Under the pieces are notes generated by a model. That model was not told the origin of the DNA. It worked only from the letters and a program-made list of their open reading frames with translations, and ran no database searches. A stretch of 11,120 nt of DNA, taken from Microcaldota archaeon. GTDB lineage: Archaea; Micrarchaeota; Micrarchaeia; Anstonellales; VGKX01. Made by a program: the position numbers and the translations under genes. Below, piece by piece: positions 1 to 11,108 of this stretch; position 1 is the stretch's first letter; every line of letters begins with the position of its first letter. The DNA is taken from assembly GCA_021823945.1 (NCBI GenBank), contig JAKALW010000016.1:1-11120 (forward strand). Reading direction: 5' to 3'.

Positions 1-2153
1 TTCTCGCCCTTGCGCTCCCTTATCTGCCTGACTACTTTTGCAAGCAGTTCCTTGGGCAGCGGCTCGTAGCCGGCGTATTCCTGGTAGGGAATTGCCCTGC
101 CTTGGGTTGCCGACCTCAAGTCGTTCCCGAACCCGAACAGCTCAGCTACAGGGACCTTGGCGATGATGTTTGTCACCTCGCCTTCCTGTTGCATGTCAAG
201 CATCTGGCCGCGCTTGCCCTGGATGAGGGTGATGACAGCGCCCATGTAATCCTGCGGCACGATGATTGTCAGCTTCTGCTTGGGCTCAAGCAATGTGACG
301 CCTGCGTACAATATGCCCGCGTACATCGCCCTCTTGATTGCCGGGATAATCTGGGCGGGGCCCCTGTGGACCGGGTCCTCGTGGATTGTGGCGTCCACAA
401 TCCTGATTTTAAGCCCCGTGATTTTCTCCTTCGCAAGCGGGCCCTTGTCAAGCGCCTCCTCAAAGCCCTGCAGGAGAAGCTCCATTATCTCGTCGAGATA
501 CTGGACGCCCCTCGTGTCGTTTATGAAAAGCGACTTGTTGTAAATGTGCTTGACAGCCTTTGCCAGGTCGCGGTCCAGGCCAGCCTTCACAAGCGCCTCC
601 ACTGCAGCCTTGCCCTTGGGCTTGCCCTCGGCGATTTCGCCATTGTCAATGGCGTCAATGACAGACTGCTCGAGCTTCTCGACAAACAACTTGATTTTCG
701 TGTGCTTGTTTGGGGACTTGCCTTCCACCTGCGGCGAGTTGCCAGTGATTGCCTCGCGGTAAACCACGATTGGCGGGGACGTAACTATGTTTATGCCCCT
801 CTCCTTTGTAATCTTGTATTCTATGATTTCAAGGTGTAGGTCGCCCATGCCAGAAATCAGGTGCTCGCCGGTTTCCTGATTGATTTCGACCTTCAATGTC
901 GGGTCCTCCTTTGAGAGCTGCCTCAACGCCATGATGAGCTTTGCGAGGTCCTTGGACTCCTTCGCCTCGATGGACTTCGTGACCACGGGCTCTGAGTAGT
1001 GCTTTATCTGCTCGAAAGGCTCGACCGGGCCTGCGCTCACTGTCTCGCCTACATAAACGTCTTTCAGGCCCACAAGGCCCACGATGTTGCCTGCCACGAC
1101 TTCCTCGACCATGACCCTGTCAATGCCCATGTAGATTGCGCATTGCTGGACCTTCTCCTCCTTGTACTTGGATGCGAGATACATCATGTCTCCCTTCCTG
1201 ACATGGCCTGAAAAGAGCCTGACAACCGCGACTTCGCCCGCGTTGGGGTCGTTAACGACGCCAAAGCACACGCCGATTGTCTTGCCCTGGACATTGCATG
1301 AAAGCATGTCCTTTGCGTCCTGGGATTCCAAGTCGCCTTTCCATATGACCGGGATACGGTATTTCTGCGCCACGAGCGGGTTTGGAATGTGGGACGTTAT
1401 CATTTCAAGCATGGTCTCGTCAAGCGGGGATTTCTCCCTCAATGTCTTGTGGTCGCCGGCCTTGCACAGCTCAGCCATTTCCTTGAACGAGAGGTTGAAC
1501 CTCTTCATTGAAAGGACAGAAACTGCCCATTTGTTGTACGCCGAGCCGAAGCTGATGTTGCCCTTTGCGACCTGGATCATCCAGTCGTCCCTTTTGTCCT
1601 CGGGCGCGTACTGCATGATGATTTTGTTCAATCCAGTGATGATTTTGATGAACCTCTGCTGCATCTGGTCGCCGTCAAGCTGCAATTCGTTAATGAGCCT
1701 GTCTATCTTGTTGATGAAGATTGTGGGCTTTGCCCTCTCCCTCAATGCCTGCCTAAGCACTGTCTCGGTCTGCGGCATGATGCCCTCGACTGAGTCCACT
1801 ACGAGCACGACGCCGTCCACCGCCCTCATTGCCCTTGTGACGTGGCCGCCGAAGTCCACGTGGCCCGGCGTGTCTATGAGGTTCAGGAGGTAGTCCTTGC
1901 CCTTCAACTCGAAGGCGATTGAAATATTGGCGGATTTGATTGTGATGCCCCTTGCCTGCTCCTGCTCGTCAAAGTCCATGACCCTCTGCTCGCCCGCCTT
2001 TTCCTTGGAAATCAGACCCGCGCGCGCAACAAGGGAGTCCGTAAGAGTAGTCTTGCCGTGGTCGACGTGGGCGCAAATCGCGACATTCCTCACGTTTTCG
2101 AGGTTGTTCATCAGCTTTGAAACTTCGCCTACTACGTATTCTTTCCTGACCAT
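1..2153 (-). CDS. fusA: Translation elongation factor EF-2 (aEF-2), partial: C-terminus cut by window edge
   Basis: GTPase that drives ribosomal translocation in the cytoplasm. Reading leftward from the ATG at 2153, 717 codons are open to the window edge. Seen: the G1 motif AHVDHGKT (residues 28-35), the switch I RGITIK (68-73), G3 DTPGH (94-98) and G4 NKID (148-151). Later domains follow in normal order, including the domain IV loop EDPVHRGPAQ with the diphthamide-acceptor histidine at about residue 596 (codon at 366-368). Archaeal EF-2 is about 730 residues, so some 15 C-terminal residues lie outside the window. The start is supported by a GGTGA ribosome-binding site 6 nt upstream (2160-2164). 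The gene follows the peptidase gene on the same strand, but 203 bp away with a terminator-like element and TATA-like box between, so it is probably transcribed alone. The diphthamide loop reads DPVH where DAIH is more usual; the histidine and RGPAQ are intact. Confidence 0.97.
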   Translation of the reverse strand, partial: MVRKEYVVGEVSKLMNNLENVRNVAICAHVDHGKTTLTDSLVARAGLISKEKAGEQRVMDFDEQEQARGITIKSANISIAFELKGKDYLLNLIDTPGHVDFGGHVTRAMRAVDGVVLVVDSVEGIMPQTETVLRQALRERAKPTIFINKIDRLINELQLDGDQMQQRFIKIITGLNKIIMQYAPEDKRDDWMIQVAKGNISFGSAYNKWAVSVLSMKRFNLSFKEMAELCKAGDHKTLREKSPLDETMLEMITSHIPNPLVAQKYRIPVIWKGDLESQDAKDMLSCNVQGKTIGVCFGVVNDPNAGEVAVVRLFSGHVRKGDMMYLASKYKEEKVQQCAIYMGIDRVMVEEVVAGNIVGLVGLKDVYVGETVSAGPVEPFEQIKHYSEPVVTKSIEAKESKDLAKLIMALRQLSKEDPTLKVEINQETGEHLISGMGDLHLEIIEYKITKERGINIVTSPPIVVYREAITGNSPQVEGKSPNKHTKIKLFVEKLEQSVIDAIDNGEIAEGKPKGKAAVEALVKAGLDRDLAKAVKHIYNKSLFINDTRGVQYLDEIMELLLQGFEEALDKGPLAKEKITGLKIRIVDATIHEDPVHRGPAQIIPAIKRAMYAGILYAGVTLLEPKQKLTIIVPQDYMGAVITLIQGKRGQMLDMQQEGEVTNIIAKVPVAELFGFGNDLRSATQGRAIPYQEYAGYEPLPKELLAKVVRQIRERKGE

Positions 2154-3463: not shown

Positions 3464-4405
3464 TTACTGCTGCCTGTATGTCTGGCCTTTCTTTATCGCC
3501 GCCTCAAGCTCCTCAATGAGGTATTTGTTCCCCATGTAGAGGGGCACTCTGGCGTCTATATCGGGCAGGTCAACGTCCAGCAGTGAGATAGAGCCATTGC
3601 TTGACGCCCCGCCGGCCTCTTCCATGATAAGCGCCATTGGCGCTGCCTCGAAATACAGCCTCAATTTGCCATTAGGGCTTTTTTTCGTGCATGGGTATGA
3701 GAACAGACCGCCCCTGTGCAGGACCTGGGAAAAATCGCCTACAAACGCGCCGCAGTACCTTGCCTTGAGCCTGTGCTTCTTGAAAAGCCCCTTTGCGAAT
3801 CCCATGAACTCATTGCTCCATTCCATGGGGTCAGCGCCAATCCCGAAAACCTCGCCTTTGGCAGGCAATTTCATGTTCTCGTGCAAAAGCAGGTATTGCT
3901 GCTCGCCCTCGCGCTGCTTGACGAATTCATGAACCCCCATCCCGTTCCCAGCAGTATAGACCAGGGTGGTTATGGGCCCATATAATTCGTAGATTGCGCA
4001 CACGAGTTTCCTGCCTGTCGCGGGCAAATCCTCGCGGTAAATGCCGAAAATAGTGCCGAACACGTTGTTTGTGGATATGTTTGACGAGCCGTCAAGCGGG
4101 TCCATCGTGACCACAAACGGCGCGCTGTCATTGTAAATGTACGGCTTGTCAAGCTCCTCGGAGTATATGGCGCGAACAAGCCCGGTCTTGATTAGCGCAT
4201 CCACAAAAAAGCCGTTTGTCCACGCGTCAAGCTCCTTTTGGACCTCGCCAAACTTGTTGGTTGTACGAGCTACTTTGAGCCGTTTGGGGAATTCAGCCTT
4301 GACATTGGGCGTCATCTGCCCTATGCGCGAAATCAACGTTGCCAAATCAGCGGACAGGTGTTTGGACGCGTGTTTTCCAAGGGTGATTTCAAGATTGTCA
4401 GGCAC
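3464..4405 (-). CDS. fbp: Class I fructose-1,6-bisphosphatase
   Basis: Hydrolyses fructose 1,6-bisphosphate to fructose 6-phosphate and phosphate, the committed step of gluconeogenesis, in the cytoplasm. Class I signatures are seen (numbering from the GTG at 4405, 313 residues): the metal-binding SEE at 82-84, DPLDGSSN at 102-109, GGLFSYP at 232-238, YFEAAPM with the metal-ligand glutamate at 253, and RVPLYMGN at 286-293. Length is near the usual 320-340. Start choice: the frame opens after a TAG at 4463-4465 and has no ATG nearby. GTG at 4405 has AAGGTG 6 nt upstream, whereas TTG at 4420 has no clear site; the difference is only five residues. The gene follows the aldolase that makes its substrate. 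Having a class I phosphatase beside a separate aldolase differs from the bifunctional aldolase/phosphatase common in thermophilic archaea. Confidence 0.95.
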   Translation of the reverse strand: MPDNLEITLGKHASKHLSADLATLISRIGQMTPNVKAEFPKRLKVARTTNKFGEVQKELDAWTNGFFVDALIKTGLVRAIYSEELDKPYIYNDSAPFVVTMDPLDGSSNISTNNVFGTIFGIYREDLPATGRKLVCAIYELYGPITTLVYTAGNGMGVHEFVKQREGEQQYLLLHENMKLPAKGEVFGIGADPMEWSNEFMGFAKGLFKKHRLKARYCGAFVGDFSQVLHRGGLFSYPCTKKSPNGKLRLYFEAAPMALIMEEAGGASSNGSISLLDVDLPDIDARVPLYMGNKYLIEELEAAIKKGQTYRQQ

Positions 4406-4495
4406 ATTGAACACCTTCAAAATTCCAGGGTTTGAAATTATCTCAAGGGGTTTGGCGCACCCCTAAAAATGCATGAAAAAACAAAGGGGAGGGGC

Positions 4496-5272
4496 TTAAT
4501 CCGAACCGAAAACCACTTTGGCAATGCCTTTTGCGATTTTCTCGGGGTTCGGGTTTTGCCAGACATTCCTGCCGACCGCAAAGCCGGACGCGCCTGCGGA
4601 CATGACGTCCTTTGCCATTTTCAGGAAATCCTCGTCCGACTGTTTCGAGCCGCCCGCGGAAATGACTTTGGTCTTCTGCGCCGCAGCAACGACTTTCTTG
4701 AACGAGTCTGGCGAGCCAGTGTAGTTGACCTTCACTATGTCCGCGTTGATTTCAAGCGCAACGCGCGCGGCATAGCCGACCATGTCCACGGATTTCTCTT
4801 CCGCGACGTATTTGCCCCGCGGGTATGCCCAGACAATTGTCGGGATGCCGTATTCGCGGCATTCCTGCTCTATTATCGAGAAGTCGTGGAGCATCTTTGC
4901 CTCTGTGGGCGAGCCGACGTAAATAGTATAGCCGACGGCATCCGCGCCAAGTGCTATCGCGTCCTTGACAGACGCGACTGGCGAGGAATATATCTCGTCT
5001 TTCGGGACTATGCTTGTCCTGCCGTTCAGCTTGAGGATGAGCGGGACTTTGCCAGCATAGTTCTCCATATACTTGACTGCCACGCCCTTGTGGAGCACCA
5101 TTCCGGTGAAATCGCCTTTGGATGCCACTGAAAGAACGTAGTCGGGGTCGATGTTCTTGTCATTGAAGTCCTTTGGCCCGTGCTCTATGCCCTGGTCCAT
5201 TGCGCAAAGCAGTACCTTGCCTTTCCGCGTAATGCGCGACATCCTTGCCTTATGACCTGCAAAACCGACCAT
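4496..5272 (-). CDS. fba: Archaeal-type class I fructose-bisphosphate aldolase (DhnA family)
   Basis: Condenses dihydroxyacetone phosphate and glyceraldehyde 3-phosphate to fructose 1,6-bisphosphate through a Schiff base. The 258-residue TIM barrel carries AMDQGIEHGP (Asp26), the WAYPRG segment (Trp148, Tyr150), the Schiff-base lysine Lys181 in DIVKVNYTG, and phosphate-binding loops AGGSK (206-210) and AVGRNVWQ (232-239). These correspond to the catalytic Asp, Trp, Tyr and Lys of the Thermoproteus tenax enzyme. The related ADH synthase of archaeal aromatic synthesis usually reads PMDHGV at the first motif; DQGIEHGP points to true aldolase. The ATG at 5272 has GGTGA 6 nt upstream (5279-5283). 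It is the first gene of a probable fba-fbp-peptidase unit, with fbp about 90 bp downstream. Confidence 0.95.
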   Translation of the reverse strand: MVGFAGHKARMSRITRKGKVLLCAMDQGIEHGPKDFNDKNIDPDYVLSVASKGDFTGMVLHKGVAVKYMENYAGKVPLILKLNGRTSIVPKDEIYSSPVASVKDAIALGADAVGYTIYVGSPTEAKMLHDFSIIEQECREYGIPTIVWAYPRGKYVAEEKSVDMVGYAARVALEINADIVKVNYTGSPDSFKKVVAAAQKTKVISAGGSKQSDEDFLKMAKDVMSAGASGFAVGRNVWQNPNPEKIAKGIAKVVFGSD

Positions 5273-5393: not shown

Positions 5394-5411
5394 AGGCACT
5401 ACCATTTGACC

Positions 5412-6089
5412 ATGGCAGATTTAAATTATATGCAGGGCAAGGTTCATGGCATGATAGACGAAGTTCTGGCTTATCTTGTCAGGCGCGGGGCGCATCTGGA
5501 GCCCGCAAAAATCACAACGCGCGAAATAGCGTACGACCTCGACATGTCGCAGCAGACGGCATCAAGGAAGGCAATCGAGCTCATCAAGTCGGGAAAAATC
5601 GAGCGCACGCCCGAAGGCATGGTGGTGACAGGCAAGGCACTCGCTGAGCTCAAGCGCACTGTAGACGAGCTGCAAAAAATGCTATACCCGGAGCTTGGCT
5701 TCGAGTTCTCGGGCAAGGTCGTGAGCGGGCTTGGCGAGGGCGCGCGGTTCATGAAAATCCAGCAGTACAAGGACAACATAAAAAAACAGCTCGGCTTTGT
5801 CCCGTACGCAGGCACGCTCAATGTCAAGATAAACCCCGAAGACGTTGAAAAGCGCCTGCGCCTCAAGACCCATCCGCCAATCATAATCAACGGCTTCCGG
5901 CTTGCGGGAAAGGATTTCGGGAAAATCCTCTGTTACAGGTGCAAGATAAGGGGAATCCAGGGCGCGATTGTGTTCCCCGTGCGCTCGACGCACGGGCTCA
6001 ACGTGCTCGAGATGATAGCGCCCGTGAACCTGAGAAAGGAGCTGTCGCTAACAGACCAGTCATGGACTGAATTCGTTGTCTACCCCTGA
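5412..6089 (+). CDS. ribK: CTP-dependent riboflavin kinase with N-terminal HTH domain (RbkR type)
   Basis: Makes FMN from riboflavin using CTP (archaeal riboflavin kinase family, DUF120; EC 2.7.1.161). The 225-residue product has two parts. Residues about 15-70 form a winged-helix/MarR-like DNA-binding region with a clear helix-turn-helix pattern (TREIAYDLDMSQQTASRKAI, 36-55). Residues about 97-225 form the kinase, with SGLGEGARF (105-113), YAGTLNVKI (132-140), RSTHG (191-195) and VNLRKEL (205-211), all hallmarks of the family. The stand-alone Methanocaldococcus enzyme is about 135 residues, so the extra N-terminus is a fusion. Such fusions are known in archaea as RbkR, which both makes FMN and regulates riboflavin genes. 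The ATG at 5412 is preferred over a TTG at 5406; neither has a clear ribosome-binding site. It is divergent from fba. No other riboflavin gene is nearby. Confidence 0.93.
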   Translation: MADLNYMQGKVHGMIDEVLAYLVRRGAHLEPAKITTREIAYDLDMSQQTASRKAIELIKSGKIERTPEGMVVTGKALAELKRTVDELQKMLYPELGFEFSGKVVSGLGEGARFMKIQQYKDNIKKQLGFVPYAGTLNVKINPEDVEKRLRLKTHPPIIINGFRLAGKDFGKILCYRCKIRGIQGAIVFPVRSTHGLNVLEMIAPVNLRKELSLTDQSWTEFVVYP

Positions 6090-8576: not shown

Positions 8577-8655
8577 GAGCCAGGTTTCAACAAGCAAAGT
8601 TCAAGCCCGGCCTGGCGATAGAAGTAGGAGTTCACATAGAATCAAGAAAGATAAA

Positions 8656-8725
8656 GCCAGGTGAGGGAATCGAACCCCCCTAATCCGCTCTGCAGGCGGA
8701 TGCATAGCCTCTCTGCCAACCTGGC
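8656..8725 (-). tRNA. tRNA-Cys (anticodon GCA)
   Basis: The 70-nt minus-strand sequence folds as a full cloverleaf. The acceptor stem pairs GCCAGGT with ACCTGGC in all seven positions. The D stem starts GCA and closes with TGC. The anticodon stem is TCCGC/GCGGA with loop CTGCAGA, giving anticodon GCA. The variable loop is four bases, TTAG. The T stem GGGGG/CCCTC has one G-U pair and encloses TTCGATT. There is no intron and CCA is not encoded. A T-rich stretch follows its 3' end (8645-8655), fitting termination. A TATA-like CATATAG lies upstream near 8777-8783, implying a 5' leader of roughly 30 nt removed by RNase P. Confidence 0.95.
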
Positions 8726-8861: not shown

Positions 8862-8870
8862 GAGGCGGTG
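8862..8870 (+). promoter_or_regulatory. Ribosome-binding site of the CBS-HPF gene
   Basis: GAGGCGGTG ends 6 nt before the ATG at 8877. It favours this ATG over an in-frame GTG at 8868, which lies inside the site itself. Confidence 0.65.
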
Positions 8871-8876
8871 TTTTTC

Positions 8877-9959
8877 ATGGAGATAAAGCAGGCATATACG
8901 ATTGACGCAGATGAATCGGTCAGCAAGGCATTTTCCGAAATAGTCAGGAGCGGGCTTTCAGTGGTCGTATTGAAAGACGGGAAATACGCGGGCCTCATAG
9001 ACGACAGGGAGGTCAGGCAGACCATCAGCGACCCCGCAAAGGCCAAATGCTCAAGCGTTTGCGTCAAGGCGCCAGTCCTGACAAAGCAAAGCACGCTTGA
9101 AGACATGTGCAACGCTTTCTTCGCAGGCAGGTTCAAGAGCCTGGCCGTCATTGACAAAAGCAAGGTCATGGGCGTCATAACGCGCGCGGACGTGATATCC
9201 GAACTCCTCAATGAGAAGCTCATAGCCCGCAAGAAAGTCGAAGAAGTCATGTCATCCCCAGCGCTGGCAATTGACGAGGCGGAAACAGTGGCCACGGCAA
9301 GGAACCTCATGAAGAACAACAACGTCAGGCGCCTGATAGTGACGAACAACGGCAACATCACAGGCGTCATATCCACTTTCGACCTTGTCCAGATGCTTGT
9401 CTTCTCAAATGAGGCCCCGCCCATGCGCAAGTCAAAGGCGAACGTGGACCTCCAGCCCGTAAGCTCGCACATGAGGGAAGAGACTGTCAGGATAGTGCCA
9501 GAGGCGCCCCTGACAGACGCGGCGCGCCTGATGGCGCAGCACAACGTGTCCTCGGTGATAGTCGCAAAGGGGCAAAAGCCCCTTGGCATGGTCACGGCGA
9601 GGGACCTTTTCGAGACAATAATCAAGGAAGCGAAGAGGGAGAAGGTGTTCATATCCGGCCTCTACGGAAATGAAAAGGAGAATTACGAGGAAATCCACGA
9701 GCACGCGTCGGATCTTGTCGAAAAGCTTGGCAAGAGCATGGGCATTGAGGCCTTGTCGATACACATAAAAAAATACGGAAACAAGTATTCAGTGCACATC
9801 AGGGCGGACACCAAGAAAGGCATAATTGCCTGCTCCGAAAGCGGCTGGGACATACAAAGCGCCATAAGCGGCGCGCTTGGCGAGGTCAAGAAAATCGCGA
9901 TGAAGAAGAAGGAAGGCACGCTTGTGCGGAAAAGGATACAGAGGCGGGAGAAAAGCTGA
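8877..9959 (+). CDS. Four-CBS-domain protein with C-terminal HPF/RaiA-like (S30AE) domain; probable ribosome hibernation factor
   Basis: The 360-residue cytoplasmic protein has four CBS domains at about 1-56, 57-115, 118-175 and 194-252. The nucleotide-contacting S/T-x-x-D pattern is kept in the second (TRAD, 102-105), third (STFD, 166-169) and fourth (TARD, 240-243) but lost in the first (IDDREV). Paired CBS domains usually bind adenine nucleotides. Residues about 256-346 follow the strand-helix-strand-strand-strand-helix order of HPF/RaiA: KVFISG, a long helix to about 287, SIHIKKYG, KYSVHIRAD, GIIACSESGWD, then an amphipathic helix (IQSAISGALGEVKKIAMKKK). The ACSESGWDIQSAI stretch resembles the ASAEGQDMYAAI of E. 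coli HPF. The tail (347-360) is very basic, fitting rRNA contact. I recall a CBS-containing ribosome-dimerising protein (aRDF) reported from Pyrococcus; this may be a relative. Its stop overlaps the start of the pilin-like gene. Confidence 0.85.
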   Translation: MEIKQAYTIDADESVSKAFSEIVRSGLSVVVLKDGKYAGLIDDREVRQTISDPAKAKCSSVCVKAPVLTKQSTLEDMCNAFFAGRFKSLAVIDKSKVMGVITRADVISELLNEKLIARKKVEEVMSSPALAIDEAETVATARNLMKNNNVRRLIVTNNGNITGVISTFDLVQMLVFSNEAPPMRKSKANVDLQPVSSHMREETVRIVPEAPLTDAARLMAQHNVSSVIVAKGQKPLGMVTARDLFETIIKEAKREKVFISGLYGNEKENYEEIHEHASDLVEKLGKSMGIEALSIHIKKYGNKYSVHIRADTKKGIIACSESGWDIQSAISGALGEVKKIAMKKKEGTLVRKRIQRREKS

Positions 9960-10399
9960 TGATGATGAATTGCAGAAAACGCGGCGGGCAGGTATCAGTA
10001 GAGCTCCTCATAGTCCTTGGGGTAGTGATGATACTTGTCCTTCCCTCCCTGTTTTCGGTCTACTTCAGGATAAACAGGGCAAACGAGCAGCTAAGCGTCA
10101 ACCAGGCGGACATGGCTGCAAAAAGGATTGCAAGCAGCATCTCGCTTGTGGGCGCGGCTTCGGGCTCGAGCCTGATATCGCAGGTCATAATGCCCTCGAA
10201 TGTCAAAAACGTGTCAATTGGCAACAATGAGGTGGTGATTACGCTTGCCACCCAGAACGGCGTCACAAGCATAGTCAAAAGCGCCGAGTACAATGCCACT
10301 GTGCCGCAGGAAAGCCTGGGCAGGATGATTCGCCCTGGCACATACATGCTTGAGATATACTCAAATGAAACTGGAGTATTCGGCAGGCTTGTGAACTGA
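9959..10399 (+). CDS. Pilin-like protein with class III signal peptide
   Basis: A 146-residue surface or pilus subunit candidate. The N-terminus reads KRGGQVSVELLIVLGVV, matching archaeal class III signal peptides: a basic, Gly-ended leader, predicted cut before Gln11, mature Q-V-S-V-E with glutamate at +5, then a hydrophobic assembly helix (to about residue 30). In methanococci such leaders are cut by the prepilin peptidase EppA and the products are type IV pilins. The rest is a Ser/Ala/Val-rich soluble domain with no cysteine after the leader and several NxS/T sites (NVS, NAT, NET) that could be glycosylated. Three in-frame ATG codons (9959, 9962, 9965) are possible; the first overlaps the TGA of the CBS-HPF gene by one base, so translation is probably coupled. 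No secretion ATPase or peptidase gene is in the window. Confidence 0.85.
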   Translation: MMMNCRKRGGQVSVELLIVLGVVMILVLPSLFSVYFRINRANEQLSVNQADMAAKRIASSISLVGAASGSSLISQVIMPSNVKNVSIGNNEVVITLATQNGVTSIVKSAEYNATVPQESLGRMIRPGTYMLEIYSNETGVFGRLVN

Positions 10400-10405
10400 T
10401 TGCGC

Positions 10406-10411
10406 TTTTTT
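10406..10411 (+). terminator. T-tract terminator after the pilin-like gene
   Basis: Six T residues starting seven bases past the stop of the rightward pilin-like gene. They reach the stop codon of the convergent leftward gene at 10411, so the two transcripts end within about 12 bp of one another. Confidence 0.4.
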
Positions 10412-10599
10412 CAGGATTTCTCCTCTGCGCCAGGCAGCCCAATGCCAAGCTTTTCCCTGATTCCATTGGCGAACATGGAAACAGAACCGAGTATGCAGAC
10501 CGGGCACGGGCAGGCGGTGACTGCGCTGATTCCGAAAATCGCGCCAAGCGCGATGCTCTCATTGCCCTTTGAAATTATTTTTTCCTTGTCTATTTCCAT
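10411..10599 (-). CDS. Small membrane protein with CPCPVC motif, unknown function
   Basis: A 62-residue protein, not recognised. A short charged N-terminus (to about 14) leads into one apolar segment (about 16-45) that contains CPCPVC, with cysteines at residues 30, 32 and 35, then a conserved-looking NGIREKLGIG stretch (44-53) and an acidic tail. Three closely spaced cysteines with prolines suggest a metal or Fe-S site, or a redox-active disulfide, at or in the membrane; this is inference. The ATG at 10599 has GGTGG six bases upstream (10606-10610), inside the last codons of the preceding pilin-like gene, whose stop is two bases away. The pair is therefore almost certainly co-transcribed and translationally coupled. 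It converges on the other pilin-like gene. Confidence 0.82.
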   Translation of the reverse strand: MEIDKEKIISKGNESIALGAIFGISAVTACPCPVCILGSVSMFANGIREKLGIGLPGAEEKS

Positions 10600-10601
10600 G
10601 G

Positions 10602-11108
10602 CTATCCACCAAGCAAAGCCAATTGCAAAGTCCCGCTCAGGGGAAAAGAAGGATAAAACCCGTATTGCGCAGAAGAGTCCTGCGAGTCAGAGAAGTCGAA
10701 CCCAATAAGATAGGAATACGGCGCGCCAACCCTGCCGGAAGGCGCTGAACCCGCAGGCAGTGACAAAGGCATCTCGTCGCCAGGCTTGAGGGTGACATTG
10801 GATACCGGGATTGCCTGCCCGCCCATACTGACTGATGACAAAGCTATTGAAAACGGCTTCCTGTTCTTCAAAAGCAGGGACGCGGAGCCGTCAGAACTGA
10901 AACTGCTGGCAAGTATGGAAATCTGCGCATCCTGCCAGTATGTAGACGATTTGGGAGACACGAGATTGCCAATAGAGCCGGAAATGTTGAGGGCTGAATT
11001 GGCTGCCAAAAGCGCAACTACAAGCACTATTGAGATTAGGATTAAATACTCGACTGCCGCCTGCCCGTTGAATAACGGGATGCGAATTTTTGCCGTATTT
11101 TTGCCCAT
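10602..11108 (-). CDS. Second pilin-like protein with class III signal peptide
   Basis: A 168-residue surface or pilus subunit candidate. The leader MGKNTAKIRIPLFNG ends in Gly and is followed by QAAVEYLILISIVLVVALLA: predicted cut before Gln16, glutamate at +5 of the mature protein, then a hydrophobic helix. The mature domain is Ser/Gly/Leu-rich with a beta-like pattern, has no cysteine, and carries sequons at NIS (residue 41) and NVT. It shares the signal class with the 146-residue pilin-like protein but no evident similarity beyond it. The ATG at 11108 is 12 bp from the window edge, so the promoter and any upstream genes are not visible, and a longer N-terminus cannot be excluded. It is directly followed by the CPCPVC gene. 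Confidence 0.83.
   Translation of the reverse strand: MGKNTAKIRIPLFNGQAAVEYLILISIVLVVALLAANSALNISGSIGNLVSPKSSTYWQDAQISILASSFSSDGSASLLLKNRKPFSIALSSVSMGGQAIPVSNVTLKPGDEMPLSLPAGSAPSGRVGAPYSYLIGFDFSDSQDSSAQYGFYPSFPLSGTLQLALLGG
10606..10610 (-). promoter_or_regulatory. Ribosome-binding site of the CPCPVC gene inside the pilin-like gene
   Basis: GGTGG on the minus strand with a 6-nt spacer to the ATG at 10599. It overlaps the final Gly-Gly codons of the upstream pilin-like gene, supporting both starts and coupling. Confidence 0.6.

Follow-up and report, generated by a model that had tools for sequence, protein, structure and literature searches.

The gene at positions 8877–9959 on the forward strand of a micrarchaeal DNA stretch of 11 120 nucleotides (contig JAKALW010000016.1, assembly GCA_021823945.1; 'the window' refers below to this whole stretch) very probably encodes a ribosome hibernation factor of the HibA family. 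The architecture, predicted fold, homology, spread and conservation of the CBS3/CBS4 motifs were shown directly by the analysis. The original prediction described a fusion of four CBS domains to an S30AE/HPF domain, and this was borne out by the predicted fold and by homology to HibA. The CBS–HPF fusion is already known as the published HibA family, which was described in Nature Communications on 27 April 2026 (PMC13324472); particulars of HibA are given here as they stand in the text of that paper.

Homology to HibA and the C-terminal domain

The reading frame is uninterrupted and translates into 360 residues, with the stop codon (9957–9959) included in the coordinates of the gene, and its G+C content by codon position (0.52/0.37/0.72) follows a coding pattern. 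ATG 8877 was favoured as the start over an upstream in-frame GTG at 8868 because a possible Shine–Dalgarno sequence as read from the DNA (GAGG, 8862–8865, forward strand) lies 11 nucleotides ahead of it and because most relatives begin near the same methionine. The closest database protein is a partial sequence from a Candidatus Micrarchaeota archaeon, with 97% identity across 84% of the query. The source assembly comprises 1.21 Mb in 209 contigs and is 85% complete.

Among solved structures, the best full-length match was chain H of PDB entry 9sr9 (392 residues; E = 2.3e-21, aligned over residues 9–346 of the window protein), which was deposited as 'Dehydrogenase' and is listed as HibA–ATP in the data-availability list of the HibA paper (PMC13324472). 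Pyrococcus abyssi HibA (UniProt Q9UYR4; PDB entries 9SR9 to 9SRF and 9T7H) consists of four CBS domains in residues 1–269 and an HPF/RaiA domain in residues 270–392 (PMC13324472), compared with a total length of 360 residues for the window protein. Homology to it spans both parts (profile E = 2.3e-39, residues 9–345). A second solved protein, 9l96_a, matched the profile in the CBS and HPF parts as well, although no publication that names 9L96 turned up in a literature search, and several relatives carry the name 'CBS domain-containing protein/ribosome-associated translation inhibitor RaiA' from the Joint Genome Institute (JGI).

The HPF/RaiA domain of S30AE fold, together with its basic tail, was assigned to residues 251–360 (9627–9956, forward strand) from the predicted structure and the profile. 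In the full-length predicted model this part contains a strand at residues 257–260, a helix at 264–288, strands at 290–300, 303–312 and 315–323 and a helix at 326–359; the net charge over residues 336–360 is approximately +8. The order of strands and helices, the ACSESGWD stretch and the basic tail on which the original prediction was based are all present in the model or the sequence. Since the full-length fold searches listed only CBS proteins, the C-terminal domain was predicted separately, and a fold search with residues 251–360 returned HPF-family structures (33 HPF-family rows, with an identity of 17% or less in 29 of them). The S30AE-fold test that had been suggested for residues 256–346 was run on this slightly larger fragment; it gave the HPF/S30AE fold and the assignment stood. 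The fold is common to bacterial HPF/RaiA (YfiA), to which the C-terminal profile shows weak similarity; the bacterial proteins are not known to carry a CBS module. The 25 matches of the C-terminal profile included the unrelated chains 5cwc (E = 0.011), 5cwg (E = 0.18) and 5tgw (E = 3.2). Matches to L-rhamnose mutarotase, DUF4342 and the phage ABA sandwich were weak and under the cut-off and were dismissed.

CBS module, predicted nucleotide site and spread in Micrarchaeota

Pfam CBS (PF00571) matched four stretches of the window protein (E = 8e-35), and the four tandem N-terminal CBS domains that are a trait of HibA are present both by Pfam and in the predicted model. They lie on the forward strand at 8886–9026 (CBS1, 27.0 bits), 9072–9209 (CBS2, 22.5 bits), 9237–9395 (CBS3, 44.5 bits) and 9459–9620 (CBS4, 43.1 bits). 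Three of the four repeats passed the curated single-domain cut-off of 24 bits in the genome search; CBS2 fell short of it and has the CBS fold in the predicted model. The window protein is the sole protein of its genome with four CBS matches: the other matches fell in four frames with two each, and no second four-CBS protein was seen in the genome-wide CBS search of this 85% complete assembly. The loop between CBS3 and CBS4 (approximately residues 178–196; 9408–9464, forward strand) is positioned like the peptidyl-transferase centre (PTC) loop of HibA and aligns with HibA residues 190–207; in the predicted model the predicted local distance difference test (pLDDT) score is below 50 at residues 178–186.

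In CBS domains generally, the aspartate of the motif contacts the ribose. GVISTFDL in CBS3 (Ser166 and Asp169) and GMVTARDL in CBS4 (Thr240 and Asp243) would each provide half of the predicted nucleotide site. The search for relatives found 222 proteins, of which 120 were listed; the CBS-motif alignment comprised 121 proteins, namely the window protein and those 120 of 127 relatives that have a length of 330–420 residues. The residue at the end of the motif is Asp in all 121 proteins for CBS4 and in 119 for CBS3, with Glu in the other two. For CBS2 it is Glu in 99 and Asp in 17, and for CBS1 it is Asp in only five. The window protein belongs to the minority with Asp in CBS2 as well; its CBS2 carries a T-x-x-D motif, whereas that of P. 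abyssi HibA does not. This pattern agrees with a single predicted adenine-nucleotide site at CBS3/CBS4, as in HibA, the module of which binds one nucleotide at CBS3/CBS4, with dissociation constants of 12 µM for AMP, 65 µM for ADP and 113 µM for ATP (PMC13324472).

The C-terminal profile matched 232 of the 295 genomes of the phylum, with one match each and a single exception among the matches listed. A 17-row profile was searched in 59 genomes (that of the window, one of the same family and 57 of the same order). All 59 gave a match at E ≤ 0.001, many of these being to other CBS proteins, and by a count of the matches listed the match extended into the C-terminal domain in 53. On this distribution, HibA-type hibernation would be widespread in one archaeal lineage of tiny genomes, where the HPF domain is compact and the CBS3/CBS4 site conserved. 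Across archaea, HibA was detected in 47% of genomes, and HPF/RaiA-like proteins without CBS domains were detected in 8%, mostly in DPANN and Nitrososphaerales (PMC13324472).

In one genus (g18; genomes G018, G023, G029, G032 and G035, of 500–600 kb) the HibA match is absent, ends before the HPF domain or is disrupted. The matches in G023 and G035 each contain a single in-frame TGA, and of these five genomes only G023 was matched by the C-terminal profile. Possibly the HPF domain has been lost or is changing fast in this genus.

Comparison with known systems and alternative explanations

Several observations weigh against the assignment to HibA. The window protein shows low similarity to HibA, the CBS domains being the most clearly aligned parts; P. 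abyssi HibA (9sr9) was not among the fold-search matches listed (library to 8 April 2026). The C-terminal domain of the window protein did not match Pfam PF02482, and NCBIfam yfiA reached only E = 0.062. In the HPF domain, the hairpin of strands 2 and 3 is approximately six residues longer in HibA than in the window protein; the short hairpin was found in 116 of the 121 aligned proteins (the window protein included), with one additional residue in two and five additional residues in three. A search of the literature on Micrarchaeota and ribosome hibernation yielded no experimental work on a protein from a micrarchaeon.

The long hairpin is an accessory trait which is not among the criteria that the HibA authors used to find or define the family. 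It is the site of the second archaeal-specific insertion in HibA, and deletion of both archaeal insertions left inhibition by P. abyssi HibA unaltered (PMC13324472). When PF02482 was applied to the relatives, 13 of 18 domains matched at E ≤ 0.1 (best E = 8.9e-6). As the domain of the window protein itself was not matched, its assignment to HPF rests on relatives, profile and fold; these all point to HPF, and the argument that a domain without a PF02482 match is not HPF was rejected. No separate HPF gene was found in the same genome with PF02482, and the C-terminal profile matched only the gene in the window; a diverged HPF gene could be missed, because PF02482 also misses the window protein's own domain and the genome is 85% complete.

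Dri and SriA–SriD, which are CBS proteins solved on archaeal ribosomes, have the fold of the CBS module in common with the window protein; their matches cover this module, and the HPF-like domain distinguishes HibA from them. Haloferax volcanii HVO_2384, which came to notice because it co-purified with a variant of an acetyltransferase, is by its description among the closest known systems (PMC12607858). The parallel to Pyrococcus aRDF that had been drawn in the original prediction fails. aRDF (PF0560 of P. furiosus) is a 30S–30S dimerizing factor and the term 'CBS' is absent from the main text of the paper (PMC11724365); by this description it is set apart from the window protein, with only the action on archaeal ribosomes in common.

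P. abyssi HibA was solved on 70S ribosomes; it occupies the 30S mRNA/tRNA channel, its CBS module taking one of three positions on the 50S subunit, and it inhibits translation. T. barophilus without hibA had a lag of 4 h instead of 2 h, approximately 60% fewer 70S ribosomes and delayed regrowth (PMC13324472). A role in ribosome hibernation, as originally proposed for the window protein, is supported by homology to this ribosome-bound protein. By the same homology, the window protein probably binds ribosomes, blocks translation and binds adenine nucleotides. The tethered four-CBS module would occupy the tRNA space left empty on the 50S subunit and the CBS3–CBS4 loop would extend toward the PTC, so that translation would be halted and 70S ribosomes preserved intact under starvation or stress.

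It is rather doubtful that AMP or ATP at CBS3/CBS4 directly controls engagement of the ribosome by the HPF domain, which would be a refinement of the hibernation-factor assignment. The near-invariant motif Asp in CBS3 and CBS4 and the nucleotide affinities of the HibA module are consistent with such a switch. However, reconstituted P. abyssi complexes with AMP and ATP adopted largely the same ribosome-bound conformations, ATP adding one weakly populated state, and native HibA complexes contained no bound nucleotide (PMC13324472). Neither AMP nor ATP had a clear effect on the binding of HibA to ribosomes, and direct nucleotide switching therefore remains unproven; the HibA authors leave engagement, release or partner sequestration as alternatives (PMC13324472).

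CBS modules of the same shape are also found in the transcription regulator HhpR and in kinases (AMPK gamma), and the window protein might be a CBS-domain regulator with a C-terminal domain that binds another RNA or a protein instead of the ribosome. We consider this very improbable for a protein with homology to HibA in both parts. The probability is close to negligible that the main role is non-ribosomal, exerted through replication or recombination partners, with ribosome binding being secondary. Such partners were recovered in pull-downs of Thermococcales HibA that are cited in the Discussion of the HibA paper, but the inhibition of translation by HibA and the loss of 70S ribosomes and delayed regrowth upon its deletion argue against this role (PMC13324472), and no replication or recombination gene was recognized among the window genes that were scanned or read.

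The pilin-like neighbour and other genes in the window

The hibA-like gene is followed on the forward strand by a gene (9959–10399) that begins within the HibA stop codon and encodes a pilin-like protein of 146 residues with a class III signal-peptide-like start. This protein had no Pfam match. Its 36 pilin-like relatives, seven of which were matched by Pfam Class_IIIsignal, align over their full length with a mean column identity of 40%, and the full-length alignment indicates a protein family and not merely a signal motif. When the family was compared with the PDB by sequence, three matches were obtained (best E = 0.015), none of which was meaningful.

Neighbourhoods were compared at 61 loci of different genera, consisting of the window and 60 others (L064–L123) with one chosen per genus; the 60 were drawn from the listed matches of the C-terminal profile, with several near contig ends and a few others left out. 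In 37 of the 61 loci a match to the pilin profile starts on the same strand −19 to +140 nucleotides from the HibA stop, a count that is partly circular because 36 of the loci were used to train the profile, which was seeded by the class III motif just 3′ of HibA. The remaining loci have a match adjoining on the opposite strand (five), a match 531–1377 nucleotides downstream (three) or none (16). Across the phylum, the pilin profile at E ≤ 1e-15 had matches in 255 of the 295 genomes. In 36 of 54 genomes (the 59 genomes above with G018, G026, G029, G032 and G042 left out) the best pilin match of the genome directly follows HibA on the same strand; the other best matches lie 3–4 kb downstream on the opposite strand (six), farther away (two) or on another contig (ten). 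Without the 16 genomes that were sources of the profile, the count is 20 of 38. In a sample of the phylum outside the profile, a pilin match directly follows HibA in 39 of 43 genomes, with a gap of 10–87 nucleotides between the matched parts; this sample, taken from 67 genomes with HibA and pilin both among the best matches listed, 24 of which are in the profile, favours strong matches, and some of its genomes share a genus with profile members.

Two counts argue against an exclusive pairing with HibA. At E ≤ 0.001 the pilin profile matched one to nine genes per genome in the 59 genomes, so related pilin-like genes also occur elsewhere, and in a BLAST cluster of pilin-like genes 54 of 57 were downstream of HibA, two were upstream and one overlapped it. 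Co-expression of the pair is supported by the overlap of stop and start codons or the short gap, together with the spread over many genera. Tentatively, hibA and the exported pilin-like gene may form one two-gene unit by which ribosome silencing and a cell-surface change are induced jointly. Speculatively, this change could be attachment to, or departure from, a host or surface, with a function joint with hibernation. The frequent link offers a testable clue to further effects of dormancy in the largely uncultured micrarchaea. The terms 'pilin', 'operon', 'neighbo' and 'synten' are absent from the main text of the HibA paper (PMC13324472), and the HibA–pilin pair was not found in the titles and abstract starts of literature on hibernation in Micrarchaeota or DPANN, on class III signal peptides and CBS or on micrarchaeal pilins.

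At four loci (L088, L104, L107 and L117) the pilin-like gene is followed on the same strand by a gene for a further large protein whose start is class III-like; the frames, of at least 517–672 residues, are cut by the end of the stretch examined. The pair may lead into a cluster of surface proteins.

In the window, two features on the reverse strand run toward the pilin-like gene: a small open reading frame of 62 residues with CPCPVC (10411–10599) and a gene (10602–11108) for another class III signal-peptide protein, matched by PF04021. Close to the hibA-like gene on its upstream side, the opposite strand carries a tRNA-Cys (gca) gene (8655–8725). Ordinary genes elsewhere in the window encode an elongation factor 2-like protein (3–2153, reverse strand; by reading only), a class 1 fructose-bisphosphatase-like protein (3464–4420, reverse strand), a DeoC/LacD-type aldolase (4496–5272, reverse strand) and a CTP-dependent riboflavin kinase domain (5406–6089, forward strand).
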